A stretch of DNA of 36,730 nucleotides, from the IMG/VR virus record IMGVR_UViG_3300032093_000401, positions 1-36,730 of that record; one strand, written 5' to 3'. A model generated the notes under the pieces. That model had not been told where the DNA came from. It saw only the letters and a list, made by a program, of their open reading frames with translations, and did no database searches. This document shows, piece by piece, positions 14,079 to 35,221 of this stretch. The position numbers were made by a program, and so were the translations under genes. This DNA comes from a virus. Positions within the stretch are counted from its first letter, which is position 1. Each line of letters starts with the position of its first letter.

Positions 14079-14570
14079 TTAGAAACGAACGCCGAAGCCT
14101 ACAAGAGCTCCGTGCTGACCAACTCCACGATCAAAGTCGGTATAGCGATACTCGACCTTGCCATAGACAGGACCAGCAATGTTGGCTTCAACACCAGCTC
14201 CAAGACGCAGGCCTTCGAGTTCAGTCGAAGTGGTCTGCTTCCAGTTGGCATATCCAACCTTACCATAAACAAGAACAGCGTCCTTGATTACATAGCCAAG
14301 GCGAGCAGATGCACCAACATTACGACGATCGAATACATTGTCAAGATTTGCTTCAAATCCAACAATAACATTCTTGTAAAGTTCAGCATCGAAACCAACA
14401 GCAGCTCCATAAGTAACATCAGTTAGGTCAAGCCGGCGAGCTGCGACTGGACCAGTAACATCGTCTACTCCAGCAGTCACTTCAGCACGAACACCCGTAA
14501 AAGAATTTGCCATGGCTGGAGTTGCAAGAGCGGTGCTTGCAGTTGCAATTGCAATCATAAAGTTCTTCAT
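14079..14570 (-). CDS. Outer-membrane beta-barrel protein, Opa/Omp25-like, 163 aa
   Basis: Signal peptide MKNFMIAIATASTALATPAMA followed by a mature barrel of about eight alternating strands (TYGAAVGFDAELYKNVIVGF, VLVYGKVGYANW, GPVYGKVEYRYTDF). It ends in GFGVRF, with the terminal Phe recognised by BAM. The pattern is that of the small opacity-type outer-membrane proteins common in alphaproteobacteria. A phage-encoded surface barrel may mask receptors or alter permeability. It ends at a strong terminator. No obvious promoter is visible just upstream; AGGTG precedes the ATG. Confidence 0.85.
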   Translation of the reverse strand: MKNFMIAIATASTALATPAMANSFTGVRAEVTAGVDDVTGPVAARRLDLTDVTYGAAVGFDAELYKNVIVGFEANLDNVFDRRNVGASARLGYVIKDAVLVYGKVGYANWKQTTSTELEGLRLGAGVEANIAGPVYGKVEYRYTDFDRGVGQHGALVGFGVRF

Positions 14571-14593
14571 ATATATTCACCTTTTGTTGTTAA

Positions 14594-14704
14594 TCAGCGA
14601 TTGATAGGCTCAATCACCAAAGCCTTCATACAACTGGTTGATACTCTCTTCCAGTATTCCTTAAACTTGTTAATTCTTTGGATAGCGATAGTGGTAAACA
14701 TCAT
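14594..14704 (-). CDS. Possible small basic protein, 36 aa
   Basis: Frame from ATG 14704 to TGA 14594-14596, overlapping the end of the 55-aa membrane gene out of frame. The peptide MMFTTIAIQRINKFKEYWKR contains a FKEYWKRV segment like that of the 42-aa protein at 13284-13412, which supports it being real. No clear ribosome site. Function unknown. Confidence 0.4.
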   Translation of the reverse strand: MMFTTIAIQRINKFKEYWKRVSTSCMKALVIEPINR

Positions 14705-14837
14705 CAATGTTTTCCCATTCAATATCGCTCAAATCAAGTGCACTAATATCTTTAAACACTTTATAGCCAAAATAAGATAAAATTCCTATGATGACTACTC
14801 CTGCAGCACCGGAAAATATCTTTGTATTTTTAAGCAT
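14670..14837 (-). CDS. Single-span membrane protein, 55 aa
   Basis: ATG 14837 has GGAGATATTA upstream; longer starts run into the structured RNA region. One helix (SGAAGVVIIGILSYFGYKVF) is followed by an acidic tail (DLSDIEWENIDDVYHYRY). N-in or N-out anchor of unknown role. Confidence 0.6.
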   Translation of the reverse strand: MLKNTKIFSGAAGVVIIGILSYFGYKVFKDISALDLSDIEWENIDDVYHYRYPKN

Positions 14838-15148
14838 TAATATCTCCATGAATAAAGCGAAGTGGAAGGATTTGGTTGTACCTTCAAGACCCAGCCAATT
14901 ACCTATGTAATCTCGGTCTACAACTCGTTTGCTGGTTGAGCAGGAGGACCACTCCCCGAGTTTTGCCTTACTCCCACTGGCGAGGGAGTTATTCAGCCAC
15001 ACTTCTTACGTAGCCCGTCGGCCACGATATCTAAATGAGTGTAATGGCTACTGAGGTGTCGACTCGCTAGGTCGGTAATTTCGCTCTTTACGTTCCCATC
15101 TTCCCCCATATCGCTTGGTCACCACGGGAACTTCCACTACATTCAAAC
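14838..15148 (-). ncRNA. Gene-free structured stretch downstream of tRNA-Asn
   Basis: About 300 bases with no credible coding frame. The minus-strand RNA can form several hairpins, such as GTTCCC/GGGAAC, CGAC/GTCG and ACTCCC/GGGAGT. It is transcribed with tRNA-Asn from the 15243-15271 promoter. T4 encodes stable RNAs C and D of unknown function in its tRNA cluster; this could be an analogue. I cannot show a defined RNA. Confidence 0.35.
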
Positions 15149-15223
15149 TGGCTCCTCAAGATGGATTCGAACCACCGACCAGCGCATTAACAGTGCGCGG
15201 CTCTACCGCTGAGCTATTGAGGA
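15149..15223 (-). tRNA. tRNA-Asn (GTT)
   Basis: Cloverleaf with acceptor TCCTCAA/TTGAGGA, anticodon loop CTGTTAA, T loop TTCGAAT and encoded CCA. Directly downstream of the 15243-15271 promoter. Confidence 0.95.
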
Positions 15224-15242
15224 ATATGATCTTTATATTCTT

Positions 15243-15271
15243 AGTCTACATTATATATCAATTAATGTCAA
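15243..15271 (-). promoter_or_regulatory. tRNA promoter (TTGACA-17-TAGACT)
   Basis: TTGACA 15271-15266 and TAGACT 15248-15243 on the minus strand, about 20 bases before tRNA-Asn; overlaps the end of the 65-aa gene. Confidence 0.8.
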
Positions 15272-15455
15272 CCGTTTTTAATTCAGCACGAATTTCTTTA
15301 TAGTGGCGAGTAAGAATTTCGCGAACTTGTTGCTTCTCAGTAGGAGTTGCAAACTGAACTTCAAAATATAGATTACCATTCATTGAAGATTCACCAGCAG
15401 CATTATCTGCATCTTCAAGAAAATCGCTTATGTGTATTTGTGTTTTGATAGTCAT
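15258..15455 (-). CDS. Hypothetical protein, 65 aa
   Basis: ATG 15455 with AGGAG upstream. MTIKTQIHISDFLEDADNAA, then a predicted strand and a helix rich in charged residues (EKQQVREILTRHYKEIRAEL). Embedded between tRNA-Arg and tRNA-Asn. No family recognised. Confidence 0.65.
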   Translation of the reverse strand: MTIKTQIHISDFLEDADNAAGESSMNGNLYFEVQFATPTEKQQVREILTRHYKEIRAELKTVDIN

Positions 15456-15470
15456 AACAAACTCCTATAT

Positions 15471-15547
15471 TGGTGCCCTTGGCAGGATTCGAGCCTGCAA
15501 CCATTCGCTTCGAAGGCGAGCGCTCTATCCAGTTGAGCTACAAAGGC
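15471..15547 (-). tRNA. tRNA-Arg (TCG)
   Basis: Acceptor GCCTTTG/CAAGGGC, anticodon loop CTTCGAA, T loop CTCGAAT, encoded CCA. The first anticodon-stem pair is a mismatch. Confidence 0.88.
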
Positions 15548-15552
15548 GTATA

Positions 15553-15595
15553 TGGTGCGGAATGAGAGGGTCGAACTCCCGGCATCCTTTGAATA
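15553..15595 (-). pseudogene. 3' half of a split tRNA
   Basis: From the 3' anticodon stem (AAAGG), through the variable loop and T arm (TTCGACC loop), to acceptor ATTCCGC and ACCA. No 5' half is adjacent. The matching 5' half lies at 16196-16224: GCGGGAT pairs with ATTCCGC over all seven positions (one G-U) and CCTT pairs with AAGG. Confidence 0.75.
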
Positions 15596-15671
15596 TGGTA
15601 GGTCCTGACGGGCTCGAACCGCCGACATCATCCGTGTAAAGGACGCACTCTACCAACTGAGTTAAGGACCC
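15596..15671 (-). tRNA. tRNA-Val (TAC)
   Basis: Acceptor GGGTCCT/AGGACCT, anticodon loop TTTACAC, encoded CCA. Intact, but lies between the halves of the split tRNA, and its 5' part overlaps the last codons of the HNH endonuclease gene. Confidence 0.93.
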
Positions 15672-16155
15672 GTGACCGATATAATCGGTTGTATTTATTA
15701 CGTTTTGTATTCTTTTTATTGCGACCACACCATGTATGTGTTTGAGTATGGCAGTTTGGACATAAAATTTGCAAGTTATCTAATGAATTATTATCACTAT
15801 TTCCATCTATATGATCCATTTGTAAGGTGAGAGGTTTATTGTTCCACTCAGAACCTACACCGCATGCTTCACAATATTCTCCGCGTGTTTCAAACAAATA
15901 CCGTTTCATGTGCTGTTCAGCAAGAACTTCTCCATTTTGTATTTGTTTGAAACGTTCTTTCCATTCATATTCACGTTGACATTTATTACTGCAATATTTG
16001 GCATTAAACGTCAAGCTTTGGCAATTTGGGCACAGTGTAGCTTCTTTAGTTTTACGTGAAACAGAATATCTTCCACCTTCGCGATGGACACTTTTATGTC
16101 CATTTAGTTTACGATGGTTATCAAATTCTTTGTCGCACACTTCGCACTTGTACAT
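15628..16155 (-). CDS. HNH homing endonuclease, 175 aa
   Basis: N-terminal C2H2 finger (C4, C7, H20, H24), a second Cys cluster (CPNCQS...CSNKC) and an HNH nuclease domain with CEACG, MDHIDGNSDNNSLDNLQILC and CPNCH. This is a typical freestanding phage homing endonuclease that nicks or cuts DNA near its insertion site. The stop lies within the anticodon arm of tRNA-Val, so the last 15 or so residues are encoded by tRNA sequence. A late box TATAAATA (16183-16190) and AAGGAG precede ATG 16155. It sits inside a split tRNA gene. Confidence 0.9.
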   Translation of the reverse strand: MYKCEVCDKEFDNHRKLNGHKSVHREGGRYSVSRKTKEATLCPNCQSLTFNAKYCSNKCQREYEWKERFKQIQNGEVLAEQHMKRYLFETRGEYCEACGVGSEWNNKPLTLQMDHIDGNSDNNSLDNLQILCPNCHTQTHTWCGRNKKNTKRNKYNRLYRSRVLNSVGRVRPLHG

Positions 16156-16182
16156 ATAAACTCCTTAGCTCAATTACTAAGT

Positions 16183-16190
16183 TATTTATA
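16183..16190 (-). promoter_or_regulatory. Late promoter box TATAAATA before the HNH gene
   Basis: Exact T4 late consensus in the 40-base gap between the tRNA 5' half and the HNH start. Confidence 0.55.
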
Positions 16191-16195
16191 ATTTT

Positions 16196-16224
16196 AAGGC
16201 GCTCTACCACTGAGCTAATCCCGC
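16196..16224 (-). pseudogene. 5' half of a split tRNA
   Basis: Acceptor GCGGGAT, TA, D arm GCTC-AGTGGTA-GAGC and start of the anticodon stem (CCTT), then the sequence turns into the spacer before the HNH gene. The partner is the 3' half at 15553-15595. Confidence 0.78.
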
Positions 16225-16229
16225 GAAAC

Positions 16230-16306
16230 TGGTACCCGTGGAGGGACTCGAACCCCCAACATCCTGGACCTAAACCAGGCGCCTCTTCCAATTGGACTAC
16301 ACGGGC
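16230..16306 (-). tRNA. tRNA-Leu (TAG), class I shape
   Basis: Acceptor GCCCGTG/CACGGGT, anticodon loop TTTAGGT with a perfect CCTGG/CCAGG stem, encoded CCA. The variable loop is only five bases (ATGTT), whereas bacterial leucine tRNAs have a long variable arm, so charging identity is uncertain. Confidence 0.82.
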
Positions 16307-16310
16307 AAGT

Positions 16311-16376
16311 GACTCCCCACAGTGTGCTTCACTACTTGGTTGGCCGAACCTTTCACATCGAGAGGCAGGGGGAGTT
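16311..16376 (-). ncRNA. Structured inter-tRNA segment
   Basis: A 7-bp stem ACTCCCC/GGGGAGT encloses about 50 bases that include a GGTT/AACC mini-hairpin. It lacks a T arm or anticodon arm, so it is not a tRNA. Possibly a processing structure or small stable RNA. Confidence 0.35.
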
Positions 16377-16383
16377 CTATTAA

Positions 16384-16542
16384 TTACTTAGTTACAGCAA
16401 CTCTAAGAGTGCCAAGGCCAAGAGCACCAAGAAGTGCATATACGTATTCTGGAATAACATAACCTAAAGCTTGAGCAACAGCTAAAGCAATAGTAACTGC
16501 AGATACGATATAGGTCTTTTTACCTTCTAAAAATGCCATCAT
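16384..16542 (-). CDS. Small membrane protein, 52 aa (holin-like candidate)
   Basis: ATG 16542 (or 16539) after AAGGAGAAAAC; TAA 16384-16386. Cationic start MMAFLEGKKT, then hydrophobic TYIVSAVTIALAVAQALGYV and YALLGALGLGTLRVAV, giving two helices. A late box lies at 16587-16594. Late expression, size and topology would suit a holin, but similar membrane proteins have other roles. Confidence 0.6.
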   Translation of the reverse strand: MMAFLEGKKTYIVSAVTIALAVAQALGYVIPEYVYALLGALGLGTLRVAVTK

Positions 16543-16586
16543 AGAGTTTTCTCCTTATATTAATAAAGTCTTGCAAGACTCGACTA

Positions 16587-16594
16587 TATTTATA
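16587..16594 (-). promoter_or_regulatory. Late promoter box TATAAATA before the 52-aa membrane gene
   Basis: Exact consensus, about 45 bases before the ATG and just after tRNA-Ala. Confidence 0.5.
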
Positions 16595-16600
16595 TAAGGT

Positions 16601-16676
16601 TGGTGGAGAATAACGGGATCGAACCGTTGACCTTCTGCATGCAAAGCAGACGCTCTCCCAGCTGAGCTAATCCCCC
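16601..16676 (-). tRNA. tRNA-Ala (TGC)
   Basis: Acceptor GGGGGAT/ATTCTCC (G-U pairs), anticodon loop TTTGCAT with TCTGC/GCAGA stem, T loop TTCGATC, encoded CCA. Confidence 0.95.
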
Positions 16677-16678
16677 AT

Positions 16679-16948
16679 TTAAATACTTGGTTTATCAACG
16701 TTTGCGTTCATAGCTTCCATTGTTTCTAACCGAAGTGTTTCAATTTCAGATGCAGACGGAACGTAATTCTTTTTATAATTATATTCCATCAATTCATCTT
16801 GAGACATAGTCGACTTGAGATCAGAAACTATGAATGCAAACCGTAATACTTCATTGCTATTTGGATTATACATTGATACAGACTTAAGTCTGGCTTCAGC
16901 AATACGAAGATTATCAAATTTACTCATTGCAGATGAGACTACATTCAT
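16679..16948 (-). CDS. Hypothetical protein inside the tRNA cluster, 89 aa
   Basis: The start at ATG 16948 has AGGAG; longer frames read through tRNA-Gly and tRNA-Thr and are artefacts. Sequence MNVVSSAMSKFDNLRIAEAR ... VLRFAFIVSDLKSTMSQDEL looks soluble and helical with one strand pair. No family recognised. Lies between tRNA-Gly and tRNA-Ala in the same direction. Confidence 0.68.
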   Translation of the reverse strand: MNVVSSAMSKFDNLRIAEARLKSVSMYNPNSNEVLRFAFIVSDLKSTMSQDELMEYNYKKNYVPSASEIETLRLETMEAMNANVDKPSI

Positions 16949-16972
16949 AATATACTCCTTTGTTGATAAATT

Positions 16973-17046
16973 TGGAGCGGGATACGGGAATCGAACCCGT
17001 CTAATCAGCTTGGAAGGCTGGAGCATTACCACTATGCTAATCCCGC
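16973..17046 (-). tRNA. tRNA-Gly (TCC)
   Basis: Acceptor GCGGGAT/ATCCCGC, D loop AGTGGTA, anticodon loop CTTCCAA, T arm ACGGG/CCCGT, encoded CCA. Confidence 0.95.
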
Positions 17047-17053
17047 AGTATTC

Positions 17054-17129
17054 TGGTGCCCCCACGACGACTCGAACGCCGGACCTACGCATTACAAGTG
17101 CGTCGCTCTACCAACTGAGCTATAAGGGC
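17054..17129 (-). tRNA. tRNA-Thr (TGT)
   Basis: Acceptor GCCCTTA/TGGGGGC with two G-U pairs, anticodon loop CTTGTAA with ACGCA/TGCGT stem, encoded CCA. Confidence 0.94.
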
Positions 17130-17173
17130 TTACGATATGTTCTATCGCTATTTGTGTTCTTTGCTTTATTAAA

Positions 17174-17250
<77 letters not shown>

Positions 17251-17270
17251 TTATTATCTATATATAAAGC

Positions 17271-17344
17271 TGGATGCCCCTCTAGGACTCGAACCTAGGT
17301 TGACGGATTCAAAGTCCGCTCTCTTACCACTAGAGGAAGGGGCA
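17271..17344 (-). tRNA. tRNA-Gln (TTG)
   Basis: Acceptor TGCCCCT/AGGGGCA, anticodon loop CTTTGAA, T loop TTCGAGT, encoded CCA. Confidence 0.93.
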
Positions 17345-17351
17345 ATAAACT

Positions 17352-17437
17352 TGGTGGACCCCGTGGGGCTCGAACCCACGACCTTTTACAGATCGGTTTT
17401 ACAGACCGATTGCCGAAACTATCGACTTTAAGACCCC
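17352..17437 (-). tRNA. tRNA-Tyr (GTA)-like gene with a non-pairing acceptor, or 3' half of a split tRNA
   Basis: The anticodon arm TCGGT-CTGTAAA-ACCGA, a 13-base variable region and T arm GTGGG/CCCAC fit tyrosine tRNA, and the 86-base length fits a class II tRNA. But the 5' strand GGGGTCT cannot pair with the 3' acceptor GGGGTCC. A perfect 7-base partner, GGACCCC, starts the orphan tRNA 5' half at 18235-18269. The D arm (GTC...GGC) is weak. Either a damaged tRNA-Tyr or the downstream piece of an interrupted tRNA. Confidence 0.55.
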
Positions 17438-17563
17438 TTATTCTATACACCCTATCGGTTAACTCCATTCTAGATCGCGGTAAGGAATCCGATATTCGCC
17501 AGCGTTCCCCGTCTGTTAGTCTGGCTAGGTCTCTCCGGCAGTTTCTAGAATACCGGATAATTC
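17438..17563 (-). other. Structured non-coding segment between tRNA-Lys and the Tyr-like gene
   Basis: About 125 bases without a credible frame. Possible pairings include GCCAG/CTGGC and ATTCTAGA/TCTAGAAT. A CAGACTAACAGACGGGG stretch loosely recalls the R element of group I introns, but I could not build a convincing core. Confidence 0.3.
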
Positions 17564-17639
17564 TGGTGATCCAGGTGGGGTTTGAACCCACGACCTCGGG
17601 TTTAAAAGACCTGTGCTCTACCTACTGAGCTACTGGATC
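17564..17639 (-). tRNA. tRNA-Lys (TTT)
   Basis: Acceptor GATCCAG/CTGGATC, anticodon loop CTTTTAA, one A-C mismatch in the anticodon stem (CAGGT/ACCCG), encoded CCA. Its first 18 bases overlap the end of the endonuclease gene. It shares a 19-base D-arm block with the orphan 5' half at 18235-18269. Confidence 0.9.
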
Positions 17640-18191
17640 GGTTATTTCTTTTAGAATATAATCTATAAATGTTTTTTTGTCAACTAGTTTTTGATAATCT
17701 GACCATTTGATACGAACAATTTTCCAACCTAAATTTTCTAGATATTCGTTTCGTCTTTTATCACTAGTAACAACTCTTCCATCTAAATAATGTTGGTCGC
17801 CATCAATTTCTAAATCAATATTACCTATAGCAAAATCCAATTGATAAGGACCAACTTGAAATTGTTCTACATATGAAACATCGTGTGAATCTAGAATTCC
17901 TTTCCAATATTCTTCTGGATAAGATCTTCCTTTAGAATAGTGATTTAACTTATATGGTACCATATCAGGATTTTCTCTAAGAAATTTTATTCTGCTTTCG
18001 CTAATTTTTTTCTTAGTCTCTTCAGACAGTGGTCCACGTTTTTTGTTAGCATCACTCCACTTTTTTCGTGTTTCTTCTTTTATCTCCGGCTTAGATAGTC
18101 CTTCAACTTTTGCTTTAGTATATTGATTTGTACCATTGCCGCGTCTAGCAGCCATAGCAGCATACCATTTTTCGCTCTTAGGTTTACTCAT
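17622..18191 (-). CDS. Homing endonuclease, NUMOD3 plus DUF559/VSR-like nuclease, 189 aa
   Basis: The N-terminal half has NUMOD3-type DNA-binding repeats (GPLSEETKKKISESR). The C-terminal half is a DUF559/very-short-patch-repair-like nuclease (YQLDFAIGNIDLEIDGDQHY, then NLGWKIVRIKW), the fold seen in some phage homing endonucleases. Its TAG stop lies in the D arm of tRNA-Lys. A late box TATAAATA (18209-18216) and AAGGAG precede ATG 18191. It lies beside an orphan tRNA 5' half, the same arrangement as the HNH gene. Confidence 0.85.
   Translation of the reverse strand: MSKPKSEKWYAAMAARRGNGTNQYTKAKVEGLSKPEIKEETRKKWSDANKKRGPLSEETKKKISESRIKFLRENPDMVPYKLNHYSKGRSYPEEYWKGILDSHDVSYVEQFQVGPYQLDFAIGNIDLEIDGDQHYLDGRVVTSDKRRNEYLENLGWKIVRIKWSDYQKLVDKKTFIDYILKEITDPVAQ
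17655..17683 (-). promoter_or_regulatory. tRNA-cluster promoter (TTGACA-17-TATATT)
   Basis: TTGACA 17683-17678 and TATATT 17660-17655, inside the 3' end of the endonuclease gene, 16 bases before tRNA-Lys. It would drive tRNA-Lys and the tRNAs beyond. Confidence 0.75.
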
Positions 18192-18208
18192 ACCAGTCTC
18201 CTTACTAG

Positions 18209-18216
18209 TATTTATA
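18209..18216 (-). promoter_or_regulatory. Late promoter box TATAAATA before the DUF559-type endonuclease gene
   Basis: Exact consensus, 17 bases before the ATG, in the short spacer after the tRNA 5' half. Confidence 0.5.
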
Positions 18217-18226
18217 AATTTAGAGC

Positions 18227-18281
18227 ATTCAACTAAAGCCCGTTGCTCTACCTACTGAGCTAGGGGTCCATTTAGTTGAAT
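18227..18281. repeat. 11-bp perfect inverted repeat around a tRNA 5' half
   Basis: ATTCAACTAAA (18227-18237) and TTTAGTTGAAT (18271-18281) enclose the orphan tRNA 5' half, so that the transcript would fold with the tRNA piece in the loop. Confidence 0.75.
18235..18269 (-). pseudogene. Orphan 5' half of a tRNA
   Basis: Acceptor GGACCCC, TA, D arm GCTC-AGTAGGTA-GAGC, anticodon stem ACGGG and the first loop bases CTTT (anticodon starting TT). It then departs into the endonuclease spacer. The complementary 3' acceptor GGGGTCC is at 17356-17362. Confidence 0.75.
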
Positions 18282-18365
18282 TGGTGCGGGCGGCGGGACT
18301 CGAACCCGCACGGATCTCTCCACAAGATTTTAAGTCTCGCGCGGCTACCATTACACCACGCCCGC
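18282..18365 (-). tRNA. tRNA-Leu (TAA)
   Basis: Acceptor GCGGGCG/CGCCCGC, anticodon loop CTTAAAA with CGAGA/TCTTG stem, longer class II variable region, encoded CCA. Confidence 0.93.
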
Positions 18366-18375
18366 GTGATTTAAC

Positions 18376-18504
18376 CTAAGCGGTTTCTTCCTGCTTCAGG
18401 CGAGCGTATTCTTTCATAGCCCACTGAAAATCACCCGGTCGCAGAGCGCCCGAGTTTGCGGCCTGAGTGAACAGGCGGTCCAGCATTTCGCTCATCTTTT
18501 CCAT
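18376..18504 (-). CDS. Small helical protein, 42 aa
   Basis: ATG 18504 after GGAGATTGTT and a strong promoter (18530-18558); TAG 18376-18378. MEKMSEMLDRLFTQAANSGA ... WAMKEYARLKQEETA is a helix pair with a GxLRPGDF turn. No family recognised. Confidence 0.65.
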   Translation of the reverse strand: MEKMSEMLDRLFTQAANSGALRPGDFQWAMKEYARLKQEETA

Positions 18505-32514: not shown

Positions 32515-33828
32515 TTAAAATGTTGGTGATTCTATCATTGATACTATTGGAGTGTCTTGTGGTAAATCTGCTACTGTTCCTACAAATGTAACTTGTGAAT
32601 TTAGAAGCAGTTTACCATTCTTTACTAACACTACCACATCGTTGTTTATAACCGGAGGCGGTGGCGGTGGAGGGGGAGGCGGTGGTGGTGGAGGCGGTGG
32701 TGGAGGCGGAGGTGGGGGAGGAGGTGGGGGAGGAGGTGGGGGAGGAGGTGGAGGCATAACCTCGTCGCCTATAGTTACACCATATAAATCTGCGTCCGGA
32801 AGCAGTGTTGGTACCGAAGGGAATAGAATATCGTTAGTCGAATACGGATCAAGTCCAAATAATCTACACACAACTGCTAAAGTAACCGATCTCATATCCT
32901 TAGTAGGCATAAGATCTCGGCCTTGATACAGTTTCTCTTTAGCGAGACCTGGCCATTTAGTAATTACTGGAGCAAGGTTCCATTCTTTAAGAGCTCCACC
33001 AGCCAAAATAACTACGTTGCCTACTCCATGATCTGTTCCGGCATTTGCGTTTGGATAGAAGCCTCTACCAAATTCGGAAGCACCAAAGAATATAACATCG
33101 TTCCAGCGCTCTCCCATTGCAGCTTTTAGATTTCCTATAAATTCGTCTACCGCATCAATTGCTCCACCCAAAGGCCAAGATTGACTTGTGTGTGTATCAA
33201 ATCCACCAAATTCTGTATAAAATACGTTATAGCCTAATGCGCTCAGTTCAGCTATTCTGGCTGGCGAAGTTAGTGTTGGTGTCATATCACCCTGTAGAAC
33301 CATCTGATCAAAAGCACTCATGAGTGGTGTGTCAGATTTCCACATTTCTTGTAATCTTGTTTGTTGCACAGCAGTAAGTTTAGTTACTCTTTCGCCAAAG
33401 GTAGATATTGAATTATCACCTAAAACACCAAGAGTACCAAAAGTAGAAGTAGTGCCAGGTACTACAGAAGCGCCCTTGGCAACATAGCCATGATTGTTAA
33501 TAGCCGTCATTAATCTATTAACCCAGCCAGTCTTTAATTGCATTGGTGTGTCACCACCAGATTGCAATACTCGCTGGCCATCAAAGTGTGATCTATCAGC
33601 ATAAGTAGTACCAACGGCATGAACAAAAGAAGCTTCTTTTAATCCTACCATATTATGTAGCACATTACATTTACCGTGTAGTGCAAAGAACCCGTCTAAG
33701 TCCATTTCTCCCGCGAAGGGAAACTTACTACGGTATACATTGAATTCTGGGTCGCCTCTAGGGATAACTACATCGAGTCCATCCATTGCACCTAGTAGTG
33801 GAGCGAATATAAAAATTGGCTGCTTCAT
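32515..33828 (-). CDS. DUF1501 family protein with 34-residue polyproline tract, 437 aa
   Basis: DUF1501 (alkaline-phosphatase-superfamily-like) with DRSHFDGQRVLQSG, FGGFDTHTSQSW, SEFGRGFYPNANAGTDHGVG and the ending DMRSVTLAVVCRLFGLD. In bacteria these proteins are exported and pair with DUF1800 genes; their reaction is unknown. Here the Tat signal is missing. Residues 359-392 are 34 consecutive prolines, then a 45-residue beta-rich tail. It follows the DUF1800 gene by 13 bases. Unusual for a phage. Confidence 0.9.
   Translation of the reverse strand: MKQPIFIFAPLLGAMDGLDVVIPRGDPEFNVYRSKFPFAGEMDLDGFFALHGKCNVLHNMVGLKEASFVHAVGTTYADRSHFDGQRVLQSGGDTPMQLKTGWVNRLMTAINNHGYVAKGASVVPGTTSTFGTLGVLGDNSISTFGERVTKLTAVQQTRLQEMWKSDTPLMSAFDQMVLQGDMTPTLTSPARIAELSALGYNVFYTEFGGFDTHTSQSWPLGGAIDAVDEFIGNLKAAMGERWNDVIFFGASEFGRGFYPNANAGTDHGVGNVVILAGGALKEWNLAPVITKWPGLAKEKLYQGRDLMPTKDMRSVTLAVVCRLFGLDPYSTNDILFPSVPTLLPDADLYGVTIGDEVMPPPPPPPPPPPPPPPPPPPPPPPPPPPPPPPPPPVINNDVVVLVKNGKLLLNSQVTFVGTVADLPQDTPIVSMIESPTF
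32653..32754. repeat. 102-bp low-complexity tract encoding 34 prolines
   Basis: Composed of CCN codons on the minus strand, with near-identical 12-bp units (CCACCTCCTCCC) in the N-terminal part. Plus strand is an uninterrupted G-rich run with many GG/GGGG groups, so G-quadruplex and slippage are possible. Confidence 0.95.
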
Positions 33829-33841
33829 TAAATTAGTCTCC

Positions 33842-35221
33842 TTATCGCCATGTCATTTCGGGGGAAACGAAGAAGGACGATAATGCATCATTCGTAGTTG
33901 ATATACTACGAACAATAGTTTCTGTTGCCGCTCCAACATCAGCCACGTCCAATGGCATAGTGGTTCCTACTAAAGTTAAGAAATTTTTCCAAATATACAT
34001 AAACTTGTTTAATCTCCAGAACATTTCTTCTGAAGTTACAAAAGACTTAATATCCGGATATCCAGCTGGAGATCCTGGTCTCCATACACCAGTGCGATCT
34101 AGAGCAAATCCATTAGAACCAAAAGCTATAGGTTCTAGATTAGTAATTCCAGCTCCAGCTAAATATCTACTTACTGCTACTGACCAATCCCATTTATCTC
34201 TAAATTTCTTAGATTGGTTAATATCTGTATTAATTAAGTTATCAAAGAATATGTTGACCAACTTCTTGTAGATAGCTGGTAACCATCCTCCAGTGAATTT
34301 CCATTCGTCTTTTAGCTGATCAATAATCCATCTAGGAGGATCGTCGCTAATAAAGTGTCTTGCTAATTTGTAGCAAATGAACTCTGCACAAGAATCTGTA
34401 ATACACAGATCTTTTACAATCGATTCTGCTTGCTCATATCCACCGGCAGGATAAACTTTACCCAATACTACTCTTTCGCCTGGCTCGTGCATTCTTTCAT
34501 CGAATACAAACTTACCCAGTCTTATACCAGCAATTGGAGCGAGTTCTGATACCCAACCATTTCTAGTATAGCCTGTGAGAGCCTTGCTTAACTCTATAAC
34601 ATCATCTTGTGTATAGCCACCATTAACACCGATGGTGTATAACTCGAGTAATTCTCTACCAAGATTTTCATTCATTCCTTTACGGCCCCGACCCATCGGG
34701 CTATTCATTCCATATGAGTTCCAGTGCGTCAAATAGTCAAGCATAGCAGGACTCTGACAAGCAGCTGAAATTACTAGATCATGGAAATATCCCATCATCT
34801 TGGGACGAATGTGATAGAACTCATGGGCTACCATATGTCCGCCTGCTTCGCAAGCGAAATGATTAGACCAAAAATGCATTAATCTTTCTGGAAATGGGTG
34901 ATTAGTGCTTACAGCAACTTCATACCGTTTCTTTATACCGGCGGGCTGTGTAACAGTCATGCTGTAGTTCCACCACTCATTACTCCTCCACGCTGGTACT
35001 TCCACAGACATTTGCCCTGTGGGTACTGATCTTCTACGAATTTCCGCGTGATAAGCTGATAAATCGTCTGGTGTTTGTGCTAAAGCATATTGCTGTGATG
35101 AAGCATCAAATGTAGCTAACTGATCTAGTAAATGTTTTTTAGCATCTACAATAGAAGAAGCTTCACCGGGTTTAGCTCCTAATCCGAATCTATTTAGTGC
35201 ATAAAAAATAGGTTTACTCAT
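33842..35221 (-). CDS. DUF1800 family protein, 459 aa
   Basis: DUF1800 signature blocks: LNRFGLGAKPGE at the start, RLMHFWSNHFA, and NENLGRELLELYTIGVNGGYTQDDV followed by ALTGYTRNG. Members are typically exported bacterial proteins of unknown function encoded next to DUF1501 proteins, as here. No signal peptide. It follows the MazG-like gene with an 8-base overlap, so it belongs to the early operon of gp46/PDF. Function unknown. Confidence 0.9.
   Translation of the reverse strand: MSKPIFYALNRFGLGAKPGEASSIVDAKKHLLDQLATFDASSQQYALAQTPDDLSAYHAEIRRRSVPTGQMSVEVPAWRSNEWWNYSMTVTQPAGIKKRYEVAVSTNHPFPERLMHFWSNHFACEAGGHMVAHEFYHIRPKMMGYFHDLVISAACQSPAMLDYLTHWNSYGMNSPMGRGRKGMNENLGRELLELYTIGVNGGYTQDDVIELSKALTGYTRNGWVSELAPIAGIRLGKFVFDERMHEPGERVVLGKVYPAGGYEQAESIVKDLCITDSCAEFICYKLARHFISDDPPRWIIDQLKDEWKFTGGWLPAIYKKLVNIFFDNLINTDINQSKKFRDKWDWSVAVSRYLAGAGITNLEPIAFGSNGFALDRTGVWRPGSPAGYPDIKSFVTSEEMFWRLNKFMYIWKNFLTLVGTTMPLDVADVGAATETIVRSISTTNDALSSFFVSPEMTWR

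Follow-up and report, generated by a model that had tools for sequence, protein, structure and literature searches.

The window, meaning the whole stretch of DNA analyzed here, is a virus fragment of 36.7 kb from IMG/VR, which carries the T4-type replication genes UvsX, family B polymerase, and clamp loader. It agrees by 99.96% across 12.9 kb with another contig from the same virus (L002). On its minus strand lie, in this order, tRNA-Leu(tag), the 5′ half of a tRNA, the box TATAAATA, an HNH ORF, tRNA-Val(tac), the 3′ half of a tRNA, and tRNA-Arg. The features between the two outer tRNAs are:

16196..16224, minus strand: 5′ half of a broken tRNA, the resident tRNA-Val(UAC), GCGGGATTAGCTCAGTGGTAGAGCGCCTT; 27/29 identity with the intact tRNA-Val(tac) of the related loci L107/L108/L110
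16183..16190, minus strand: T4-type late promoter box TATAAATA; motif enrichment, conserved in close relatives
15628..16155, minus strand: HNH endonuclease of 175 aa with an N-terminal C2H2-like finger and an HNH domain; Pfam and PHROG matches, AF2 model
15596..15671, minus strand: intact replacement tRNA-Val(UAC); ARAGORN, Rfam 59.7 bits
15553..15589, minus strand: 3′ half of the same broken tRNA-Val, AAGGATGCCGGGAGTTCGACCCTCTCATTCCGCACCA; 35/37 identity with the tRNA-Val of L107/L108/L110, acceptor 7/7 with the 5′ half

The acceptor stem between the two halves forms 7/7 pairs, one of them G-U. When 5′ and 3′ acceptor strands were paired at random among 745 phage tRNAs, 1.0% of the pairs matched 7/7. 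The preliminary description, made from sequence alone, had claimed two halves that fit one tRNA, with a late box, an HNH gene, and an intact tRNA-Val in between, and this held. Its 3′ half, drawn at 15553-15595, held in part: the tRNA portion is 15553-15589, and the remaining TATTCA (15590-15595) is junction sequence without an equivalent in intact relatives. Two features were missed. The HNH ORF terminates within the tRNA-Val, its stop codon occupying nucleotides 42-44 of the tRNA, so that the last part of the ORF doubles as the 5′ part of the tRNA, and a second broken-tRNA cassette, in tRNA-Lys, is located at 17352-18269. The TATAAATA motif occurs 11 times in the window versus 2.9 expected, and the box of the first cassette is conserved together with the next ~30 nt across all close relatives.

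When both halves were compared jointly with 839 distinct tRNAs from related loci, the top-ranked match was the tRNA-Val(tac) of L107/L108/L110. These loci had been retrieved with a pattern of the 3′ half; hence, the 3′ match is biased and the 5′ match is not. The 5′ half has Val as its nearest isotype, with two tRNA-Gly genes also close. In an unbiased search, the top match was the tRNA-Val(tac) of Agrobacterium phage Atu_ph07 with 77% full-length identity, the anticodon TAC being assigned by reading. Several intact tRNA-Val genes occupy the same place in the array, which is Leu(tag)-Val-Arg(acg)-Asn. A chance pairing of unrelated tRNA pieces was rejected since the same tRNA-Val matches both halves. 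Likewise, an origin of the halves from different intact tRNAs, which would have refuted the preliminary description, was checked and not found: one intact tRNA in relatives supplies both. Based on these close intact relatives, and on the exact halves found in cassette-free relatives of two sister copies (L056 and L087, see below), the broken gene was the original resident tRNA-Val(UAC) of the phage. The joined halves contain no anticodon. The preliminary description had suggested running ARAGORN on them, and no tRNA is called unless junction DNA is included, in which case many different amino acids are assigned, depending on the amount included.

The protein matches Pfam HNH (PF01844) above the cut-off (3.7e-6) and a PHROG HNH endonuclease family at 3e-27; the zf-C2H2 match is weak (5e-3). 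The AF2 model has a pLDDT of 78. Residues D114, H115, and N127, as well as the cysteines 95, 98, 132, and 135, are invariant in 23 relatives. Compared with the HNH gene of L056, that of the window shows 83 base differences, 56 of them at third codon positions, and the codon differences are 48 synonymous versus 20 nonsynonymous; therefore, the HNH protein is under purifying selection. A sequence search against solved structures returned no match, and Foldseek with the HNH model gave no significant hit, the best ones being to DotN, which is HNH-like, and to zinc fingers, at E>0.02.

The same cassette is found in other phages. In L056/L057, the polymerase of which is ~72% identical, and in L087, which equals L106, the box, the HNH gene, the tRNA-Val, the sequence CCATATT, and their order are unchanged. 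Uninterrupted alleles also exist, meaning that the cassette is polymorphic for presence and absence: both L056 halves are contained exactly in intact tRNA-Val genes of seven cassette-free loci, and both L087 halves in two. In the L056 and L087 insertions, 18 nt of the anticodon arm are replaced. The halves of L056 and of L087 (L106) differ at one acceptor pair on both arms, which is A6-T67 in one and G6-C67 in the other. The cassettes of L056 and L106 are 597/599 identical, and the matched surrounding blocks are only 69-89% identical. Hence, the cassette is horizontally mobile beyond the spread of the phage genome. The near-identity ends within the target tRNA. A search with the junction pattern CAGGACCTACCATATT gave 17 hits, 12 of which have no tRNA at the site and are chance matches. 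In one locus, L048, the new tRNA-Val and the 3′ half of the old one remain, but the HNH gene is almost entirely gone and the 5′ half mostly so. This pattern matches the expectation for a homing gene that decays once it has spread, with the part needed by the phage remaining; the need of the phage for tRNA-Val is herein assumed.

The second cassette of the window lies in a tRNA-Lys gene and consists of the following features:

18235..18269, minus strand: broken tRNA-Lys(UUU), 5′ half, interrupted within the anticodon loop; 34/35 identity with the intact tRNA-Lys(ttt) of L048
18209..18216, minus strand: TATAAATA late box of the second cassette; motif match
17622..18191, minus strand: DUF559/MTES_1575-type nuclease of 189 aa, stop inside tRNA-Lys; Pfam MTES_1575 5.4e-9, DUF559 9.1e-7
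17564..17639, minus strand: intact replacement tRNA-Lys(UUU); 71.2 bits
17352..17382, minus strand: 3′ half of the same broken tRNA-Lys, joined to tRNA-Tyr 5′ sequence; 31/31 identity with the 3′ half of the L048 tRNA-Lys

By reading, GGGGTCC and GGACCCC, the acceptor strands of the Lys 3′ and 5′ halves, respectively, form 7/7 pairs. The chimeric tRNA made of Lys 3′ and Tyr 5′ parts scores 24.9 bits. Relatives (L364-L367) show the same layout; in L364, a short 3′ piece also follows the new tRNA-Lys, and the insertion is in the anticodon loop. One architecture is thus common to two unrelated nuclease families, HNH and DUF559/MTES_1575. As a separate observation, the replacement tRNA-Lys(UUU) of L364-L366 is unusual for Lys in its long variable arm (84-85 nt, class II shape).

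For the wider HNH family, a scan with an HNH alignment yielded 160 relatives, comprising 80 viral and 80 bacterial loci. In 80/160 loci, a tRNA starts close to the HNH stop codon, from 60 nt upstream to 20 nt downstream of its last base. The stop lies inside the tRNA in 59/160, and in 31 of them at tRNA position 10, where it reads TAG in 26 of 31; this TAG is the tRNA's own conserved U8-A9-G10. The overlap of ORF and tRNA was considered as a hallmark and rejected, as about 4% of other tRNAs are overlapped by the end of an ORF of ≥100 aa and overlap alone means little; none of those ORFs has a stub. Upstream of the HNH gene, 22/80 viral loci and 7/80 bacterial loci contain a truncated 5′ tRNA stub, versus 58/2614 background stretches (2.2%); the other 58/80 viral loci have no detectable 5′ stub. 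The nearest isotype of the stub is mostly that of the attached tRNA, and several loci contain a 3′ piece that pairs 7/7 with the stub, as does L364 by eye. Phages mostly have Val as the attached tRNA and bacteria, chiefly Patescibacteria, mostly Thr, and isotype tracks the HNH tree (21 changes versus 54 when shuffled). One Patescibacteria locus, L313, has a 3′ piece of an old tRNA-Thr located behind the new tRNA-Thr. The complete genome of the cultured Synechococcus phage DSL-LC03 carries a tRNA 5′ half ending in the anticodon loop, TATAAATA, an HNH gene, and an intact tRNA-Thr. In the named phages Ro1, mistaenkt, Michonne, HdH2, Mareelih, and MA01, related HNH genes lie near or abutting tRNAs or elsewhere, with no clear 5′ stub. 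The tRNAs of L089/L194 and L219 are chimeric and rejected by ARAGORN; therefore, rescue is not always achieved.

Two further observations were made on related loci. In L204/L206, a chimeric tRNA with a Phe-like 5′ part and a Val-like 3′ half lies ~80-150 nt past the HNH stop, and the acceptor strand of its Val-like half pairs with the upstream Val stub. L052, L188, and L201 contain tRNAs with anticodon CUA (called Pyl), which are possible amber suppressors in related phages.

The cassette is best read, with good though not complete confidence, as a mobile HNH homing endonuclease of the free-standing kind, which has a tRNA gene as its target and brings a replacement tRNA along. The layout, the uninterrupted relatives, the recurrence, the horizontal movement, the selection on the HNH protein, and the survival of the new tRNA where the nuclease has been lost are supported directly, and cleavage of the tRNA gene is inferred without an assay. 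In this reading, the mobile unit would be a cassette of ~600 bp, composed of the late promoter, the HNH gene, and a complete tRNA-Val fused at its 3′ end. In a co-infection, the enzyme, with its finger and HNH domain, would cut or nick the tRNA-Val gene resident in the other phage, at a point past the D-arm and ahead of the anticodon loop. Phage recombinases repairing this break would copy the cassette in, the tRNA halves and neighboring tRNAs serving as homology arms. The resident tRNA would thereby be destroyed, and the intact tRNA-Val of the cassette would restore the isotype, so that the recipient would be spared its loss. Because the HNH frame ends inside the tRNA-Val, nuclease and replacement are physically locked together. 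A right-hand exchange falling inside the incoming tRNA would instead create a chimeric tRNA with a mismatched acceptor, as in L089/L194 and L219.

Evidence for a linked replacement is that an intact tRNA of the same anticodon overlaps the nuclease ORF and is kept in L048 despite the loss of HNH; its charging and use are inferred. The fitness benefit of the replacement is likewise inferred, and the importance of tRNA-Val for phage fitness is assumed. Immunity of the replacement tRNA is also an inference. Its D-stem may have been recoded so that its own nuclease spares it, for which the data are only suggestive. The D-stem is other than GCTC in 20/23 cassette tRNAs, and, with pattern-selected control tRNAs removed, the comparison with controls gives p=0.20 for Val (not significant) and p=0.015 for Thr. 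An initial p=2e-6 was rejected as proof of immunity since its Val controls had been picked by a pattern holding that very D-stem.

A bolder reading, for which we would give about equal chances, is that natural "home-and-rescue" elements form a broad class in phages and Patescibacteria. Herein, unrelated nucleases (HNH, DUF559/MTES_1575) would each have evolved to destroy a tRNA gene in competing genomes and to carry, fused to their frame, a same-isotype replacement that resists cleavage, turning over tRNA genes.

Among the alternatives, a passive recombination remnant survives best but is unlikely. It states that the HNH gene and tRNA-Val of another phage were inserted by chance via tRNA homology, without nuclease-driven spread. 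In its favor, tRNA arrays do recombine, and the chimeric tRNAs (L219, L204, and the Tyr of the window) represent exchange within tRNA arms. However, the insertion zone is common to many phages, cassettes are near-identical despite diverged phages, the distance from promoter to D-stem is conserved, HNH is under purifying selection, and an unrelated nuclease has the same layout. The preliminary description had offered both a mobile endonuclease-tRNA cassette and a recombination remnant. The former is well supported by the same cassette in the same tRNA gene of other phages, its near-identity despite phage divergence, and the intact alleles in relatives; the latter is disfavored against it.

A functional split tRNA of the Nanoarchaeum type, with halves that are transcribed separately and then joined, is all but excluded. 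The acceptor stem of 7/7 pairs and an anticodon stem of 4 bp in the window speak for it. Against it, the join lacks an anticodon, the halves flank an intact tRNA-Val that has the same anticodon, L056/L087 lack the 18-nt anticodon arm, and L048 lacks most of the 5′ half; on the latter two points, the spliced split tRNA that the preliminary description had implied is not supported. A self-splicing intron inside the tRNA, with the HNH gene within it, can be set aside with the same certainty. Introns with endonucleases are known from anticodon loops (review PMC3984707), but the insert terminates in a complete tRNA and the sister copies miss 18 nt of the host tRNA. No Rfam intron family was found at gathering score in the window, L056, L087, L351, or L364, and none at E<=0.5 in window 14500-18400. 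An assembly chimera, conceivable for a metagenomic contig in which tRNAs are repeats, is practically ruled out, since contigs with five or more other IMG dataset numbers show the structure, as does, in its tRNA-Thr version, the complete genome of the cultured phage DSL-LC03.

The mobile tRNA-replacing cassette can be compared with several known systems. The closest known elements are the free-standing T4 endonucleases (Seg and Mob families; intronless homing, PMC2988022), especially SegB. According to the table of that review, these enzymes are encoded intergenically and cut at distances of hundreds to thousands of bp. SegB (PMC13096335) is a GIY-YIG enzyme in the T4 tRNA region, and a late promoter is predicted for segB. 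Like these, and SegB in particular, the cassette contains a phage nuclease without intron or intein, has a late promoter, lies among tRNA genes, and spreads horizontally. Unlike them, it sits inside a tRNA gene, destroys this gene, and carries a replacement, which none of the T4 enzymes does in the sources cited; moreover, SegB is GIY-YIG, whereas the nucleases of the window are HNH and DUF559/MTES_1575. With the homing endonucleases of group I introns in tRNA genes, it shares the insertion near the anticodon loop and the endonuclease within. However, group I introns keep tRNA function by splicing, whereas the cassette would do so by a second whole tRNA, and no intron was found. Integrases that integrate into tRNA genes restore the tRNA end. 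The cassette is similar in that the element supplies tRNA sequence for what it disrupts, but it has a homing-type nuclease and no integrase, and in the window a whole tRNA is supplied, not just the 3′ end.

The same logic underlies the engineered home-and-rescue (HomeR, PMC7968924) and cleave-and-rescue (ClvR, PMC7951863) gene drives, in which a nuclease disrupting its target is linked to a replacement copy, as is the case here; the cassette looks like a natural counterpart of a home-and-rescue drive. In contrast to these, the cassette is natural, occurs in phage and bacterial genomes, and has a tRNA target and a protein-guided nuclease; essentiality and cleavage resistance have not been shown. 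From the HNH families PF01844, phrog_10822, and phrog_1271, with which it shares the catalytic domain, it differs by the frame fused to a tRNA and the flanking tRNA halves. No description of a tRNA-replacing homing cassette was found in the full-text literature searched, which omits most subscription papers and preprints; hence, novelty is provisional. Homing endonucleases are usually thought to spare their target through introns, inteins, or an intergenic position. If our reading is true, destroying the gene while bringing in a fresh copy would be a further solution. This would also account for a source of tRNA turnover and of tRNA fragments in phage arrays, provide a natural model for the design of engineered rescue drives, and turn the frequent company of nucleases and phage tRNA genes into a testable question.

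Some minor features of the window were also noted. Adjacent DUF1501 and DUF1800 proteins without a PHROG match, which are unusual phage cargo, are encoded at 32515-35221 (minus strand). GC-rich intergenic stretches between tRNAs, at 16307-16375 and 17440-17560, may form hairpins and have no Rfam match. The tRNA-Leu(UAG) of the window (16230-16306, minus strand) has a short variable loop, with 77 nt and a class I shape; the tRNA-Leu(tag) of most relatives is longer, and L056 shares the odd short form. The tRNA array ends in a manA RNA motif (RF01745, 66 bits) at 14855-15026 (minus strand), which scores 60 bits in L087 and 58 bits in L056.
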